Source: an uncultured Monoglobus sp.
Lineage (GTDB): Bacteria > Bacillota > Clostridia > Monoglobales > Monoglobaceae
DNA: 64,000 nt
Reading direction: 5' to 3'
Assembly: GCA_947628795.1 (NCBI GenBank)
Contig: CANRBF010000006.1
Span: 1 to 64,000, forward strand
Shown here one piece after another: positions 8,762 to 14,775 of this stretch. The translations under genes were made by a program, and so were the position numbers. The first letter of the stretch is position 1; each line of letters starts with the position of its first letter. The notes under the pieces are model-generated. The model was not told the origin of the DNA. It saw nothing but the letters and a program-made list of their open reading frames with translations, and made no database searches.

Positions 8762-8800
8762 CAAAAAACGCCTCCGAATTGATTCGGAAGGCGTTTTTAT
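8762..8800. terminator. Bidirectional terminator ending the phage-derived island
   Basis: AAACGCCT-CCGAAT and ATTCGG-AAGGCGTTTTT pair. U-tracts are present for both strands. It lies just after the last virion gene and just before the promoter of the LytTR operon. Confidence 0.85.
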
Positions 8801-8807
8801 AAGCGCT

Positions 8808-10061
8808 TTACATGCCAAGCATGTTCTGAAGGATCAATTGGTTTATGCGCTCCTGCGTCAGACGGTTGTCGAGGCGGTCTCCCTCCAGCTGCGCGCGAAG
8901 CATATCCTCGTAATAGCCCATATAGATCCCCTGCATAATATTCTCGTTCGCCGCGTTTTCAAGCCCCAGCATGTTGGACTGCGACTTTTGGCCGTTCAGC
9001 ACGTCGGTCCAATTGTAGTCCTGGCTGTTCTGTTTCTCGGCCCAGTTGTATTTCTGTTTATTCAAAAGCTCGGTCCAATTGTAGTCCTGAGAGTTCATCG
9101 CTTCCTCCCAGCGGCGCTCGAAAGCGTTTTGGTCTCTCGAGGCGTTGCTCGACAGTGATGAATTGGCGTTGCTTATCGTCTTGTTGTTCGCGGCGTACGC
9201 GTTGCCCCAAACCGTGTCGTAAAGCCCGATCATATCGCCAAGCAGTTCCGAGTCGCGGCTCAGGCCGTCCGAGTAACGCTCATACGCCTGCTGCGCCAGC
9301 TCGGGTATCATTCCCGAAAGCTGACTCATATAATACTGCTGAGCCAGTCCCGCCGCGGTGACCGCGGCCGAGTTTGAATATCCTCCGGTCATGGCGGAAT
9401 ACGCGGCCATCGTATCCTCGGCGGCGCGTTCGGCGTTGAGAAGATATTGGTCACGGTAAGCCCCGTATACCGGATCGGTCTCGGGATCATACGAAAATTC
9501 CTTTCGGTTCATGATCGAATCGCTGAGACTCTCGATCCGCGGCAGGTACATATCGTTGTACTGCTCGAGCAGCTCATTCGGCGAAACGGCTCCTATCGAG
9601 TTAACATAATCGTCAACCGCTGACCGCACGTCGTTTTGAAACGCCCACGCCTTGCCGTCATCATCTATATACAGCGTGTCAAGGGGTATCCCGCCGATGG
9701 TGACGATTCCGTTCGAGTATCCCAGCGCGTCGGCGGACAGGCCGTATCTGCCCGCGTAGCCGCTGTAGGCGTCCGAAACTCTGACGACCGGATTGCTCGT
9801 GTTTGAATAAAACTGAGCAACGCTGCGCTGAATATCCGACGGCATTGAAAAAGATATTCCCGCCTGCTCGTTTATGTACTGCGGCCTCATCAGCTCTTTA
9901 CCGCCCAGAGTGACCGTTTTGTTCGCCTCGTTGTATCCTATCAGGCTGTTGTCTATCCCCATATTGCGCAGAGTGGCGCGGACTCCGACCATGCCGTCGG
10001 GACGCCTCGGGACCTCGACCTTTATCTGATTGGTTTTTGTTCTACCTGATGTCTTCGACAT
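8808..10061 (-). CDS. Phage-derived virion protein with stalk-like and YNW repeats
   Basis: A 417-residue protein, last gene of the virion island. Residues about 15-55 and 100-135 look like two copies of a stalk-like repeat (GIDNSLIGYNEANKTVTLGG and SADALGYSNGIVTIGG), as often seen in clostridial phage tail proteins. The middle is helical and Ala/Ser rich. Residues 325-357 form three 11-residue repeats, QDYNWTELLNK, QKYNWAEKQNS and QDYNWTDVLNG, followed by a predicted coiled helix. It overlaps the preceding gene by 20 bases and has GGAGG eight bases before its ATG. A role as tail needle, ejection or internal virion protein is a guess from position; no enzymatic motif is seen. Confidence 0.6.
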   Translation of the reverse strand: MSKTSGRTKTNQIKVEVPRRPDGMVGVRATLRNMGIDNSLIGYNEANKTVTLGGKELMRPQYINEQAGISFSMPSDIQRSVAQFYSNTSNPVVRVSDAYSGYAGRYGLSADALGYSNGIVTIGGIPLDTLYIDDDGKAWAFQNDVRSAVDDYVNSIGAVSPNELLEQYNDMYLPRIESLSDSIMNRKEFSYDPETDPVYGAYRDQYLLNAERAAEDTMAAYSAMTGGYSNSAAVTAAGLAQQYYMSQLSGMIPELAQQAYERYSDGLSRDSELLGDMIGLYDTVWGNAYAANNKTISNANSSLSSNASRDQNAFERRWEEAMNSQDYNWTELLNKQKYNWAEKQNSQDYNWTDVLNGQKSQSNMLGLENAANENIMQGIYMGYYEDMLRAQLEGDRLDNRLTQERINQLILQNMLGM

Positions 10062-11733
10062 TTGTTTTACCTCCTGTGTAGGTTATCATTTCTATATCAT
10101 GGACGACCGCCTTTCCCTCGCCTTCCAGCATGATGCGGAAGCTGTCGCACTTCTTGAGCCGTATCGGTATGCGATGGACCGAAAATCCCTTTTCTCCTTT
10201 GATCTCGCCTCGAGCGGTGAAATCCTCGCCGTCGGCCGAAAAGCTGACTGTGACCTTGGTATCGGACTCGGACTCCAGACGGATATAGACGGCGTTCACG
10301 CTCTTGAAGTCAAAATCGTCAAGCGTGAATTTTTTGGATACCACGCACCATCTTATTATCTCCTCCGCTTCCTCGTCTCCCAGCAGGTACATGTCGGTCT
10401 CGGTCGCGCCGTACAACCTTTCACCCAAACGGACAAAGTCAACGAATTTCGTGTCATCCTCTCTGTGCCAGACGCCCATATCGGGGTCATACACCAGCAG
10501 CGACGTTTTGCCGCTCTTGTCCGCGGCGCAGGCGTAGTAACGCCTGCCGTCGGTGCCGCTCTTGCACGTCTTGAACAGAGTTTTGATCGGGCGGCTTATC
10601 CTCTCGGGCTCGCCGCCGGTATACTCATAGAAACCGTCCGCCGCCATGTAGTAGAGAATGCCGCCAACCTCGGCGACGCTCTTTCCGTCAAGAGCGCCGC
10701 TCAGCGTCTGCTTCGGCACCGAAAAATTGGTCGGCGAATCGCCGTACACATGGTGGATATAGTCGCGTTTGAACGCCACGACCGAAGTTCTGTAGCTGAC
10801 AATTCCGGTAAAGGCGCCGGGAGTGCCGATCTCGGCGAACCAGCTGTCGTCGGCAAGACCGCGGAACGACGAGAAATTAAAGCAGTCGCCCAGCTTTGAG
10901 GCGAAAATATACTCGCCGTTTTCCGAGGCTCCGAACAGGCGGTTATTGTGCACGCAGGCGCAGGCAATGTCGGGAATATAAACCTCGATCTTGACCTCCG
11001 CGCTCTCGTGCCCGTTTTCAAAAAAAGCGTAGCCCCCCTTTTTGTTATACAGCAGCAGATCCAGATCGCTTATGCCCGCCTCTTTGACGATCGCGCTGAC
11101 TATGCTTTCGTCCGAAGCGATATCTTTTTTGCTGTCAAGCACGCGCGTGTTGTTTTGCGCATTTGAGCAGCCCGATATCACAAGGCTGTCGCCCGGCTTG
11201 AAATACAAATCGAACCGCGCGCTGGCGTCTCGGCTGATCCTCGCTCTGTATCTGCCGCTTATCTCGTCATAGTAGGAATAAAACGACGCGTTCGTCACCG
11301 TCATGCTTTTGCCCATCGGCCTGAGTTCGCTTTTGACCTCTCCGTCCTCGGGGTCGGGCAAATAACGGTAGTACACCTTGTCGGGAAAAATGCAGATGTT
11401 GCCGCCGAAATCCACGATCGACTTCTCACCCTTGCTCAAGGCAATATTGTCAATGCGTTTGCCCTTGTAGTAAAAACGGCCGTCCGCAACGCCGGTGAAC
11501 GAGTCAAGACCGCCCGGAGCGTACTCCGGAAGAGCCAGCGCGGTGATGCCCTTTTGCGAGGCGATATGCCGTCTGGGTTTTCGGGGCGTCAAACACGGCG
11601 CCGCATCCGATGACATATTGAGCATTTCCGCGAGCTGTCTGTCGTCTATCTTGTCTCTTTGGTCATATCCGAAAAAACTCAGGATATCGACCTTTTTGTT
11701 TTTGCTCTTTTGAGCCGCAATCGGCATATACAT
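10042..11733 (-). CDS. Tail nozzle / packaged-DNA-stabilisation-like phage protein
   Basis: A 563-residue protein of alternating beta-strand character. The repeated blade-like motifs (for example GVADGRFYYKGKRIDN, GIVSYRTSVVAFKRDYIHHV and GGILYYMAADGFYEYTGGEP) recall the beta-propeller of podovirus tail proteins such as P22 gp10 and T7 gp12. Position after the presumed head-tail adaptor supports this. The C-terminal about 100 residues form a separate beta domain. The ATG at 11733 has TAGGAGG seven bases before it; that site overlaps the stop codon of the upstream gene, so the two are coupled. The family match is by pattern only and needs a structure-based check. Confidence 0.6.
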   Translation of the reverse strand: MYMPIAAQKSKNKKVDILSFFGYDQRDKIDDRQLAEMLNMSSDAAPCLTPRKPRRHIASQKGITALALPEYAPGGLDSFTGVADGRFYYKGKRIDNIALSKGEKSIVDFGGNICIFPDKVYYRYLPDPEDGEVKSELRPMGKSMTVTNASFYSYYDEISGRYRARISRDASARFDLYFKPGDSLVISGCSNAQNNTRVLDSKKDIASDESIVSAIVKEAGISDLDLLLYNKKGGYAFFENGHESAEVKIEVYIPDIACACVHNNRLFGASENGEYIFASKLGDCFNFSSFRGLADDSWFAEIGTPGAFTGIVSYRTSVVAFKRDYIHHVYGDSPTNFSVPKQTLSGALDGKSVAEVGGILYYMAADGFYEYTGGEPERISRPIKTLFKTCKSGTDGRRYYACAADKSGKTSLLVYDPDMGVWHREDDTKFVDFVRLGERLYGATETDMYLLGDEEAEEIIRWCVVSKKFTLDDFDFKSVNAVYIRLESESDTKVTVSFSADGEDFTARGEIKGEKGFSVHRIPIRLKKCDSFRIMLEGEGKAVVHDIEMITYTGGKTNVEDIR

Positions 11734-11744
11734 ATTTCCGCCTC

Positions 11745-12521
11745 CTACCAGTAATTTTTAAAACGCGCCAAATCGTTCAGCGGGTTTCGAGTTTTGTAGT
11801 CCCTTTTATACTCATCGTAGATGTTGTTGTACTGTATCATGTGGCTCGAGTACGTGTCGTAGTCGTGCTGATACAGAGCGATCTTCGCCAGCAGATATTC
11901 GATGTACATGCGGTCATAGGGGGCTTCCGCCTCTGTCTCATCGTCTATCACCCTTTTTATCACAAGCTTCGCGCCCGTTTCGGGAGTGAAAATATCATCG
12001 GTCAGGCGCACTTTTTCACCGTCGTTTTCATAGACATAGGTGCGCGCAGGCTCAAACTCCGGATCATCGGGCATCTCGCAGATGATCTCATCGCCCTGCT
12101 CAAAGGGCAGCATCCATCCCTCGATAACGTTCTCGCTTATGTTGAACTCGCCCTCGATGCAGATATCCCGCACCTCGCCCGGAGTTGTGAGATAAATGAT
12201 CTTGAGCAGTTTGGGCGAGCCGAATGTCAGTCCGAATCTGCGGCGGAGATCGGCGCCCGCCAGATACGGCAGGCTCCTGAGATCCGCCTTTGTCAGCGGT
12301 CTGCCGCCGAGGTAAGCCGCCTCTATATTGTCGATCGAGATATCCTCGGGCAGCTCCAGCTCCTCGCGGCAGGTCACAACAGTCTCGATAATGTCATAAT
12401 ACTTTTTAATATGGCGGCGCAGGGACAGCGACACCTCGCCGCACCAGCCCAGCTTTTCCTCAAAGTCAAAGCTGTTGGGGCTGAGGGCGTCCGCCGCCTC
12501 TATCGCGTTTAAAAGCTTCAA
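11745..12521 (-). CDS. Putative head-tail adaptor of the phage-derived island
   Basis: A 258-residue protein with mixed helix and strand. It is placed between the small protein after the capsid gene and the nozzle-like protein, the place usually held by the head-tail connector or adaptor in short-tailed phages. No strong motif is recognised. The C-terminal about 50 residues (YLLAKIALYQHDYDTYSSHM and what follows) are helical and tyrosine rich, typical of adaptor C-termini. The start is a TTG at 12521, since a stop codon precedes it directly and no ATG or GTG lies nearby; AGGACGG is about nine bases before it. Function is inferred from gene order. Confidence 0.5.
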   Translation of the reverse strand: MKLLNAIEAADALSPNSFDFEEKLGWCGEVSLSLRRHIKKYYDIIETVVTCREELELPEDISIDNIEAAYLGGRPLTKADLRSLPYLAGADLRRRFGLTFGSPKLLKIIYLTTPGEVRDICIEGEFNISENVIEGWMLPFEQGDEIICEMPDDPEFEPARTYVYENDGEKVRLTDDIFTPETGAKLVIKRVIDDETEAEAPYDRMYIEYLLAKIALYQHDYDTYSSHMIQYNNIYDEYKRDYKTRNPLNDLARFKNYW

Positions 12522-12534
12522 TCACATCACCGTC

Positions 12535-12783
12535 CTACGCCTTCAGGCTGTCGATATATTTTTCGGCGGCAAGCTCCTGGCTGTGAGCGCGCTCCACTAC
12601 AAGCGCGACCTTTCGAGGTACCGTGACGGTCTCGCCGCGCTTTATCTGATAATTGGTGCCGTTTACCGTCACGGTCAGATCGTCCTTGTTTTTCCAGTTG
12701 TCCTTCACCAGCATAAGGGGCACCGGCTCGTTATAGAACGCCTCAAGCTCCGCCTCATATTTCTGTTTTTTTGTCATTGCCAT
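12535..12783 (-). CDS. Small protein of the phage-derived island
   Basis: An 82-residue protein, starting at the ATG at 12783 because GGGAGG lies eight bases before it. The N-terminus is helical and charged (MTKKQKYEAELEAFYN). The middle holds a compact beta segment (LTVTVNGTNYQIKRGETVTV). It lies between the major capsid gene and the putative adaptor, where head-completion or decoration proteins are often encoded. No family is recognised. Confidence 0.6.
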   Translation of the reverse strand: MAMTKKQKYEAELEAFYNEPVPLMLVKDNWKNKDDLTVTVNGTNYQIKRGETVTVPRKVALVVERAHSQELAAEKYIDSLKA

Positions 12784-12800
12784 TTGTCTCGCCTCCCGAT

Positions 12801-14033
12801 TTAGTAGCTGCACGCAGTCTCGACTCTCACCATAAACTCGGGAGAAAGAATTTCCGCCGTCTGCGTCGCCTTCCAGCCCACGGTGCTCCTCTGGTCGAGA
12901 GGATCGCCCGTTCCGGCGCTGCCCTTCTGTTTGATGATGGTCTCAAGACCGCCGCCTGTGATATTCGTAACGCCGTAGGCGTTTTGACCGATAAACAGCG
13001 TGGAGTAAATATCTCTGCCGTTCTTGCCCGCGCCCGCGGGATAGATTATCGAGCCCGCCGTCACCGTGGGGCTCAGGGTTTCGCTCACGGTTATCTTGGC
13101 CGCTCCGGGCTCGCCGGACGCCGCGGATGTGATCGAATAGTCAAAGCCGTTTATCTGGATCGTTCTGCCCGACAGAGCGGTCGCGTCGCTCGACGAGATC
13201 TCCTCGGCAACGGTTATGACCTTGCCGGAAACCGCCGCCACGGTCAGACTCTCGGGGTCTCCGATCGTGATATTTGCCATATTGCGCAGAGGCTCGGCTC
13301 TGAAAATTTTCGCCTCGGTAGACTCGACGAACACAACGCCGTGTATCTTGCCGATCGTGCCGTTGTACCAATCCTTGGGATCCACATTCTGCTTGACGGC
13401 CTTCCAGTCGGGATCGTTTGTCAGGTCGTTCGCCACATCGGGATGAATGATCGCCACATAGCAGCCGTCCTTGATGGGCTGTGCGTTGTTGCGCTTGAGC
13501 GTGGCGACCGCCCTTTTTACCGCGGCCACGCTGAGATAGTCGTTGCCGCTTGCCTGACCGCCAACAAGCACGTTTCTGTCAGCCTTGCCGTCGCCGTACT
13601 GCACGTTGGTTCCCGCGTTGATCTTCTCGCGGATGACCGTGTCGAGCGTTCTGCCCGCCTGGTCGCCCAGCACGTTCTGAGTCTCGACTATAACGTTGTC
13701 GATGGCCGAAAGCGTCAGCATATCGGAAAGGGTAACATAGTCGCCGTACTGATCGACAGTGGACTCAACGGTGGTCACATTCAGCTGATTGCCCTTGGGC
13801 GTAACGCCCTCGGTCAGGGGCTTCATCGCCTTGGGCAGAGGACTGAATCTGCGGAACTCGATGGTCTTGCCGGAGCCCTTGGGGATCGGCTTGCTCTGTC
13901 CGAACTGAGCGTGAACCAGTTTGGGAGAGGCGAAGCGGATCATCTGTCTGTCGTAGTACGCCTTCATCTCGGGGGTAACGTTGTTGCCCACGCGGTTTGT
14001 GGTCGTTGTCTGGGTGTTGTAATTAATACTCAT
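12801..14033 (-). CDS. N4-gp56-family major capsid protein
   Basis: A 410-residue protein recognised as a phage major capsid protein of the N4-gp56 type (HK97 fold) by its N-terminal part: TPEMKAYYDRQMIRFASPKL, KGSGKTIEFRRFSPLPKA, LTEGVTPKGNQLNVTTVE and QYGDYVTLSDMLTLSAIDNV. A beta-rich insertion at about residues 250-330 (ITVAEEISSSDATALSG to TAGSIIYPAGAG) looks like an extra surface domain. The frame is intact, the ATG has GGAGG eight bases before it, and base use matches the neighbours. A scaffold gene precedes it, but no portal or terminase gene is present in the window. Confidence 0.85.
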   Translation of the reverse strand: MSINYNTQTTTTNRVGNNVTPEMKAYYDRQMIRFASPKLVHAQFGQSKPIPKGSGKTIEFRRFSPLPKAMKPLTEGVTPKGNQLNVTTVESTVDQYGDYVTLSDMLTLSAIDNVIVETQNVLGDQAGRTLDTVIREKINAGTNVQYGDGKADRNVLVGGQASGNDYLSVAAVKRAVATLKRNNAQPIKDGCYVAIIHPDVANDLTNDPDWKAVKQNVDPKDWYNGTIGKIHGVVFVESTEAKIFRAEPLRNMANITIGDPESLTVAAVSGKVITVAEEISSSDATALSGRTIQINGFDYSITSAASGEPGAAKITVSETLSPTVTAGSIIYPAGAGKNGRDIYSTLFIGQNAYGVTNITGGGLETIIKQKGSAGTGDPLDQRSTVGWKATQTAEILSPEFMVRVETACSY

Positions 14034-14074
14034 TAAAAATACCTCCGTTTAAAATTTTTGTTTGTTGTATCGGA

Positions 14075-14641
14075 CTAAAACGAGATCTTCTCGCCGCGGC
14101 GGACGCGTCTTATGATGTCGTCAACTTCCTCGTCGCTCATGTCCTCGGGGTTCTTTTTCACCATGCCGCTGCCGCCGGGCTTTGAGGTCCCGTTCTCCGA
14201 TATCCTCTTTTCGGGCTCCTCGGGCTTTGCGCGGTCGTTTTCGGCCTGCTCCTCGCCGCGGTGGGCCAGATAGTAGGCGTCCTCGACGCTGAGCCCGTTG
14301 CCCCACAGATAGTTGCAGAACTTGGGGTCCCGGAGCTCGCGTCTGATGTCAAAATCGGGATTCTTTCTCGAGAACTCCCTTACCTGCGCGTCGATCTCCG
14401 CGGTTCTTTTGGCTATGTACGCCTCAAGCCGCGGATCGGCTCCGCCGCGCATACCCTGAGCGGGCATCGGCATGCCGTACTGCATGGGCGCGGCTCCGGG
14501 CATCATTCCGGGCATCATTCCCTGTGCTCCGTTCTGAGGCTGCGCGGGGTACCCCTGCGCCTGAACGGGATATCCGCCGCGCGCGGCCTCGGGATACTCC
14601 CGCTCCTCCGGATTCTGTTTTCTGTTTCCAAATCCAAGCAT
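14075..14641 (-). CDS. Phage scaffold-like protein
   Basis: A 188-residue protein. The N-terminal about 75 residues are Pro/Gly/Met/Gln rich and disordered. The central helix (LEAYIAKRTAEIDAQVREFS) and the NPDFDIRRELRDPKFCNYL segment are followed by a disordered linker and the basic C-terminus DDIIRRVRRGEKISF. This layout, with a C-terminal RRGEKI-like tail just before an N4-gp56 capsid gene, is typical of scaffold proteins in clostridial short-tailed phages. The ATG at 14641 is preferred over an upstream codon because AGGAG lies seven bases before it. It is the first gene of the virion island. The scaffold role rests on position and tail motif. Confidence 0.68.
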   Translation of the reverse strand: MLGFGNRKQNPEEREYPEAARGGYPVQAQGYPAQPQNGAQGMMPGMMPGAAPMQYGMPMPAQGMRGGADPRLEAYIAKRTAEIDAQVREFSRKNPDFDIRRELRDPKFCNYLWGNGLSVEDAYYLAHRGEEQAENDRAKPEEPEKRISENGTSKPGGSGMVKKNPEDMSDEEVDDIIRRVRRGEKISF

Positions 14642-14731
14642 AATTATGCTCCTTTCATAATAATTTCGCGCCGTTTTCCTCGGCACAATTTTATTATAAA
14701 CGGGTTTAAGTGCCGCAAAGTGCCAACGTTA

Positions 14732-14775
14732 AAAGCGCTATATTTAAATGACAAGTCATTTAAATATAGCGCTTT
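14732..14775. terminator. Perfect 21-bp-arm palindrome at the end of the ANTAR gene
   Basis: AAAGCGCTATATTT, continuing through AAATGAC, and its exact complement flank a two-base centre. The right arm contains the last codons and stop of the ANTAR gene (14760-14762). It can act as a terminator on either strand and would isolate the nitrogen genes from the phage island downstream. A GGCACTT direct repeat with a 10-base period lies just beyond it (14708-14727), upstream of a TATAAT that may serve the island. Confidence 0.7.

Follow-up and report, generated by a model that had tools for sequence, protein, structure and literature searches.

Does a block of phage capsid and tail genes lying among host genes, with no packaging or lysis genes beside it, represent a decayed prophage or a particle that the host has made its own? 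The question is raised by six virion genes (locus A) in a 64,000-nt stretch, here called the window, which spans bases 1-64000 of contig 6 (CANRBF010000006.1) of the uncultured Monoglobus sp. assembly GCA_947628795.1. A preliminary description of the window left both readings standing. The source genome (G000; 2.35 Mb, 25 contigs) was compared with a panel of 51 genomes of the order, 38 of them in the family Monoglobaceae and most of them fragmented metagenome assemblies. We consider it likely that the island is one part, locus A, of a gene transfer agent (GTA) of podoviral descent, which has become fixed in Monoglobaceae and whose genes are dispersed around the host chromosome. Further loci are locus B (portal and terminase, TerL), locus C (holin and endolysin) and locus D (an XhlA-like protein); G, L and g numbers denote genomes, individual stretches and genera, respectively, and coordinates are given in Table 1.

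Virion genes of locus A

The six genes are homologous to a podoviral virion cluster. All are intact minus-strand frames exactly where the preliminary description placed them, with genes 5 and 6 sharing 20 bases and the product of gene 1 ending in RRGEKISF. In related phages and prophages the homologues form one cluster in the order TerL, portal, gene 1, capsid, gene 3, gene 4, gene 5 and gene 6; genes 1 and 3 have counterparts at corresponding places, and gene 6 homologues, which share the conserved core TGG..NS.A..TA, sit downstream of the nozzle gene. The capsid assignment of gene 2 holds, as both phrog_1357 and Phage_capsid_3 identify it as a phage major head protein, while a Protein Data Bank (PDB) sequence search gave only weak matches to major capsid proteins. 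The families matched by genes 1, 3 and 4 (phrog_13908, phrog_15239 and phrog_12105) carry no functional annotation, and profile searches with gene 6 returned no family match. Predicted structures bear out the proposed adaptor-like and nozzle-like identities. The AlphaFold model of gene 4 (predicted local distance difference test score, pLDDT, 87) matched podoviral adaptors over its full length with Z scores of 8-11, the KHP30 tail giving 11.4 and N4 and T7 gp11 also being matched, and the gene 5 model (pLDDT 87) matched the P22 gp10, Sf6 and T7 gp12 nozzles (E 1.5e-14 to 1e-9). Gene 4 is predicted to fold like a podoviral head-to-tail adaptor, and gene 5 like the P22 gp10/T7 gp12 nozzle. Residues about 248-333 of the capsid protein form an extra domain with a weak Ig-like match (Big_11); as judged by matched length, this domain is absent from genus g3 and from about half of the phage homologues, and it could be a surface decoration.

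The flanks of the island are host-type genes, confirmed as ANTAR/glnA on one side and LytTR/kinase on the other. The expectation that a six-gene locus would recur beside these neighbours is borne out in five species of the genus, the source included; other flanks are found elsewhere, and in g3 a portal gene lies upstream. In all bearers with enough flanking sequence, except g3, only the six virion genes stand between host genes. Among the window frames and profile matches, nothing next to locus A was recognised as a gene for integration or replication, and the structural, packaging and integration genes that an ordinary prophage holds in one movable cluster were not found together at locus A. 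Of the strong palindromic terminators proposed for both ends, the terminator-like hairpin after gene 6 stands, as detected by a consensus scan only. The palindrome ahead of gene 1 (about 14732-14775) is real in the window but is missing at that position in sister species, and it was rejected as a conserved terminator.

Distribution and the unlinked loci

The capsid gene was found in 24 of the 51 genomes, all within one family (24 of 38) and representing six genera. No capsid match contains an internal stop, the island is free of stops in 24 species, and the capsid is 77-97% identical across five genera. All contigs of sufficient length keep the six-gene order apart from those of g3, where a P22-type portal lies immediately upstream of gene 1, and a fibre gene and a holin gene lie between genes 3 and 4.

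A profile built from this g3 portal recovered portals in 25 family genomes, including all 24 capsid bearers. Family-type TerL occurs in all capsid bearers except G012 and G030; the TerL first assigned to G012 grouped with prophages and was removed from the family set. One further genome (G017, assembly 88% complete) has locus B and no capsid match. Locus B comprises, in an order conserved within the family, a 284-residue fibre-like protein (F284), the portal, a divergent repressor with helix-turn-helix and peptidase-S24 domains, ZN78, ACT144 (weakly matching a phage transcription regulator), SMALL78 and TerL, between neighbours judged by eye to be secD and a ruvX-like gene. The Walker A, Walker B and acidic nuclease residues of TerL are invariant in six aligned sequences, and the CI/S24-type repressor retains its Ser and Lys. 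A PDB sequence search with the TerL profile gave no matches.

The locus C amidase is present in 20 family genomes, namely all 12 of the genus Monoglobus and eight other bearers. It is adjoined by the holin in 17 of the 20; in G027 the holin belongs to another family, and in two genomes the contig ends there. Genomes without loci A and B had only other amidases among the matches listed. An XhlA-like gene precedes locus C in several genomes, and the counterpart of the locus D XhlA-like gene adjoins the holin in other species. A second cassette in the source genome, consisting of a PF05105 holin, an SPP1-like holin and a CHAP-type endolysin (L282:6822-8404; G000:C21:20821-22403), was rejected as the lysis module, having close full-length copies in few species and lying on a contig with no promoter match.

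The source genome thus holds at least four element loci flanked by host-type genes. In the single-contig genome G014, loci C, B and A lie at 0.03, 1.63 and 1.91 Mb, so that they are 0.27-1.9 Mb apart, distances that are probably too large for one head, as judged from gene positions. In G029, one contig carries both locus A and locus B, separated by about 16 kb. The earlier statement that packaging, repressor and lysis genes are missing is correct for the window, because the portal, TerL, PF05105-holin and endolysin genes of the source genome all lie on other contigs among the matches listed, but it fails genome-wide, where portal, terminase, repressor, holin and endolysin occupy unlinked loci.

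A shared late-type promoter

The loci are linked by the promoter motif GGCACN5GGCACTN10TANAAT, in which a GGCAC repeat precedes a TATAAT-like -10 box at fixed spacing, and which stands ahead of gene 1, F284 and the holin gene. The slightly relaxed pattern GGCAYN5GRCACTN10TANAAT was scanned over the 38 family genomes. The source genome contains three perfect matches, exactly at loci A, B and C, and a single one-mismatch match at locus D, 36 bases ahead of the XhlA-like gene; a third-order Markov model built on sequence from this genome predicts 0 perfect and 0.1 one-mismatch matches per genome. Matches number 50 in the 12 genomes of the genus compared to 1 in 13 family genomes without the element. 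In five related genomes (G015, G018, G019, G044 and G045) the motif lies 42-51 bases upstream of tail-fibre genes, a locus that was reached through the motif itself, and XhlA-like genes of related species were reached in the same way. It was not found upstream of the portal, TerL, ACT144, ZN78 or repressor genes. On sequence grounds, the shared promoter predicts joint expression of the loci. The motif also stands ahead of DnaD-like (phrog_186) and Lin1244-type replication-initiator-like genes in several Monoglobus species, and the regulon may therefore hold former phage replication proteins.

Inheritance and selection

Mapped onto an rpoB host tree, the element's distribution requires just two changes, with the element present at the base of the family and lost once, in the clade that unites g4, g7 and g8. 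The splits shared with rpoB were 17 of 21 for the portal, 14 of 20 for TerL, 14 of 19 for the nozzle, 12 of 18 for the repressor, 11 of 20 for the capsid and 10 of 19 for the adaptor, compared to 0.1-0.2 with shuffled labels. The family portals (support 99) and family TerLs (support 96) form clades separate from phage homologues. These trees indicate that the element has been inherited largely vertically across Monoglobaceae. The ratio of nonsynonymous to synonymous substitutions (dN/dS), proposed earlier as a check, is 0.02-0.23 for element genes between close species (0.02-0.07 for the capsid), with dS like that of neighbouring host genes. Recombination was considered and rejected as the cause of the very similar capsid of G021 (96% identical, against 65-87% for other genes). 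Four-fold sites differ by 0.38 there and by 0.39-0.64 in its neighbours; since they differ nearly as much, constraint is the main reason for the similarity.

Table 1. Positions of the element's features; loci B, C and D lie outside the window, and bare coordinates refer to the window.
Feature	Position	Strand	Description
Gene 1	14075..14641	-	188 amino acids (aa); phrog_13908, 1.9e-10; scaffold-like, judging from the place of its homologues between the portal and capsid genes of related phages
Gene 2	12801..14033	-	410 aa, major capsid protein; phrog_1357, 7.5e-82; Phage_capsid_3 (PF13252), 5.9e-7
Gene 3	12535..12813	-	92 aa, small conserved phage protein after the capsid gene; phrog_15239, 1.2e-19
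Gene 4	11745..12521	-	258 aa, predicted head-to-tail adaptor; phrog_12105 and predicted structure
Gene 5	10042..11733	-	563 aa, predicted tail nozzle; phrog_511, 6.4e-44 (virion protein) and predicted structure
Gene 6	8808..10061	-	417 aa, further virion-associated protein; C-terminal NW-type repeats
Late-type promoter of locus A	14693..14724	-	GGCACTTTGCGGCACTTAAACCCGTTTATAAT; 10-bp direct repeat GGCAC and -10 box
Terminator-like hairpin after gene 6	8771..8790	-	consensus scan
Locus B	source genome C1, about 73.7-79.7 kb (L117)		portal, TerL, repressor, small regulators
P22-type portal	source genome C1:77167-78741		g3-derived portal profile
TerL	source genome C1:73721-75202		near portal
Locus C	source genome C1, about 107.2-108.4 kb		SPP1-type holin, then Amidase_3 endolysin
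Locus D	source genome C8, about 21.7-22.1 kb		XhlA-like protein; one-mismatch promoter match
DnaD-like / Lin1244-type genes behind the motif	L378:5082-5597, L380:5031-5546, L393:5393-5890, L386:5434-6192; L391:6488-7135, L385:5957-6898		

Comparison with known systems

Kogay et al. 2022 (PMC9662315) list six criteria for GTAs, and three of the six describe what is seen in the genomes compared here. The particle proteins derive from caudoviricetes, as indicated by the capsid, portal, TerL, adaptor, nozzle, holin and endolysin matches; the element is fully endogenised over multiple loci; and its inheritance, from the rpoB and gene trees with their few supported conflicts, is mostly vertical with co-diversification. 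A search of open-licence PMC papers for GTAs of Monoglobus or other Clostridia found only FpGTA, the podovirus-like GTA of Faecalibacterium (Borodovich et al. 2026; PMC12946183). Both systems are GTA-like and podovirus-like, belong to gut Clostridia, and use more than one operon including a holin and an endolysin, FpGTA being near-universal in its genus. However, in FpGTA I a single operon of 10.5 kb includes the TerL, portal, scaffold and capsid genes, a layout that was not found here, where motor, capsid and lysis genes occupy three loci and TerL and portal lie on a different contig from scaffold and major capsid protein. FpGTA particles have been seen and sequenced, whereas the candidate Monoglobus lineage is known from its genes, and the two are likened by description. 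No match to the 18-base Faecalibacterium 16S probe Fprau645 was found in 391 genomes of the class.

The Brachyspira GTA (BhGTA/VSH-1) resembles the Monoglobus system in its terL, which stands apart from the structural cluster, is conserved across the genus and has co-diversified with the host (PMC9662315); compared by description, it differs in its flexible long tail, its 16.3 kb cluster with an endolysin and the unproven role of its terL. RcGTA is likewise phage-derived, vertically inherited and spread over five loci (PMC9662315), but it is of the long-tailed siphovirus type and belongs to Alphaproteobacteria, whereas the Monoglobus system is podoviral, belongs to Clostridia and has a CI/S24 repressor at its packaging locus. 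RcGTA has a direct activator, GafA (PMC6363796). The Gram-positive Bacillus subtilis has domesticated a phage particle, PBSX, which packages the host's DNA but does not inject it and acts as a tailocin (PMC12946183), whereas the Monoglobus tail genes are podoviral. The Bacillus phage Page/Pony group and Clostridia prophages are also similar, the Page capsid being 40% identical and the homologues from TerL to gene 6 standing in the same order. That group keeps its genes in one cluster, whereas Monoglobus has them split over the chromosome and inherited vertically.

Related elements outside the scattered loci

In two genomes from outside the family, portal-scaffold-capsid blocks (L164 and L165) are embedded among host-type genes and a solitary TerL lies elsewhere, and in the capsid tree their capsids fall among those of the family. 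These solitary TerLs (L277:7576-8970 and L279:6142-7527), also between host-type genes, pair with each other and not with the Monoglobaceae TerL; the solitary TerLs of G051 and G052 fell outside the family's TerL clade. One contig of G028 (L079; G028:C18:1-8896) belongs to a genuine phage or prophage of the related group, with a single cluster of TerL, portal, capsid and collagen-like fibre genes, and this genome carries the scattered element as well. A 6.7 kb sequence catalogued as a virus in IMG/VR (L029; IMGVR_UViG_3300013414_001080) is 87% identical to the island and is probably a piece of a Monoglobaceae chromosome. Baseplate-like genes followed by a holin and an endolysin in G014 (L283; G014:C1:710000-726000) look like a contractile-tail prophage or tailocin.

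Alternative explanations

There are several potential explanations for these loci. Chance preservation of decayed prophage remnants at several places would account for genes that are all phage-derived and for a six-gene cluster with no integrase or replication genes, and the preliminary description had offered it. We regard it as very improbable. The frames are free of internal stops in 24 species of six genera, dN/dS is 0.02-0.23, the loci are retained and lost together and their promoter is retained; in its strong form the idea is refuted by the frames, the promoter and the low dN/dS. The other half of that proposal, a domesticated particle under host control, is supported by the same stop-free frames together with host-like dN/dS and vertical inheritance. 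A delivery shell, or a compartment that is empty or holds something other than DNA, built from the products of locus A only, would agree with the window, which by itself has neither portal nor terminase. It has very little to recommend it, however, since locus A is accompanied by a portal and by a TerL whose ATPase and nuclease residues are conserved, and the promoter motif also stands at the portal operon; the unlinked packaging and lysis genes, with three loci sharing the island's promoter, make such a compartment less likely than a DNA-packaging particle. Just as improbable is an active phage or satellite that passes from host to host with its genome split. Related phages and prophages that carry these genes do exist, and one bearer (G028) also has a related phage contig, but distances of 0.27-1.9 Mb separate the loci in G014, the frames and profile matches around locus A include no recognised gene for integration or replication, and the gene trees largely follow the host.

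The chief rival, which we judge unlikely yet worth more weight than these, is a domesticated killing particle like PBSX, in which these loci would make DNA-filled, short-tailed particles that are released by lysis and kill relatives but deliver no DNA. Such a particle is expected to have identical gene content (capsid, portal, TerL, tail, fibres, holin, endolysin, a repressor and vertical inheritance). The PBSX tail is contractile, whereas the tail here is of the short podoviral type, and nothing in the sequences tells this reading apart from a GTA. The same alternative is named as open even for FpGTA (PMC12946183).

Several observations weigh against a GTA. PBSX-like particles could give an identical genomic pattern, and the Monoglobus system has so far been met only as genes. 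An extra TerL-like match in the source genome, outside loci A-D (G000:C20:17744-19159), perhaps belongs to a prophage, which could in principle also supply the motor. For the capsid, nozzle and adaptor genes of locus A there are a few strongly supported conflicts with rpoB. The amino-acid-cost signature that has been reported for GTAs of Alphaproteobacteria gave a mixed picture here, the capsid, TerL and nozzle being cheaper than their phage homologues and the portal dearer. Genus g3 is an exception in that its portal gene adjoins the capsid cluster, gene 6 was not found there, and no match to the motif was seen ahead of F284. The tail-fibre locus of related species was not found in the source genome.

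Taken as a whole, the genomic anatomy fits a DNA-packaging particle that would lyse its maker, and this vertically inherited, multi-locus, phage-derived particle system is most likely a GTA. In such a GTA, the S24 repressor would keep the divergent ZN78-ACT144-SMALL78-TerL operon silent until it cleaves itself or some other host signal releases the operon, as the repressor's position and conserved Ser and Lys suggest. A late regulator, probably ACT144, might then activate all four loci at once through their GGCAC-repeat promoters. Particles would be built from capsid, portal, adaptor and nozzle proteins, TerL would fill the heads with DNA, and holin and amidase would lyse the cell, going by what is known of these protein families. 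The particles may carry random host DNA to kin.

Implications

To our knowledge, very few GTAs are known. Among Gram-positive bacteria, only PBSX and FpGTA are known as GTA-like systems (PMC12946183). We see about an even chance that the Monoglobus loci represent an undescribed GTA lineage at least as old as Monoglobaceae, with separate capsid, packaging-motor, lysis and fibre loci in one regulon under a repeat-type late promoter and a CI/S24 repressor, one that would stand as a new viriform family and be independent of FpGTA as well as of the GTAs known from Alphaproteobacteria and spirochaetes. The findings also carry a warning that a phage island apparently devoid of packaging genes may belong to a complete system whose other loci lie elsewhere. 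Through such a shared promoter, scattered GTA genes can be gathered from a genome; here it led to the XhlA-like locus and to the tail-fibre loci of relatives. Because the candidate spans a family of gut Clostridia and one bearer, Ructibacterium gallinarum DSM 107454, is in culture, the element would make the spread, age and regulation of Gram-positive GTAs testable.

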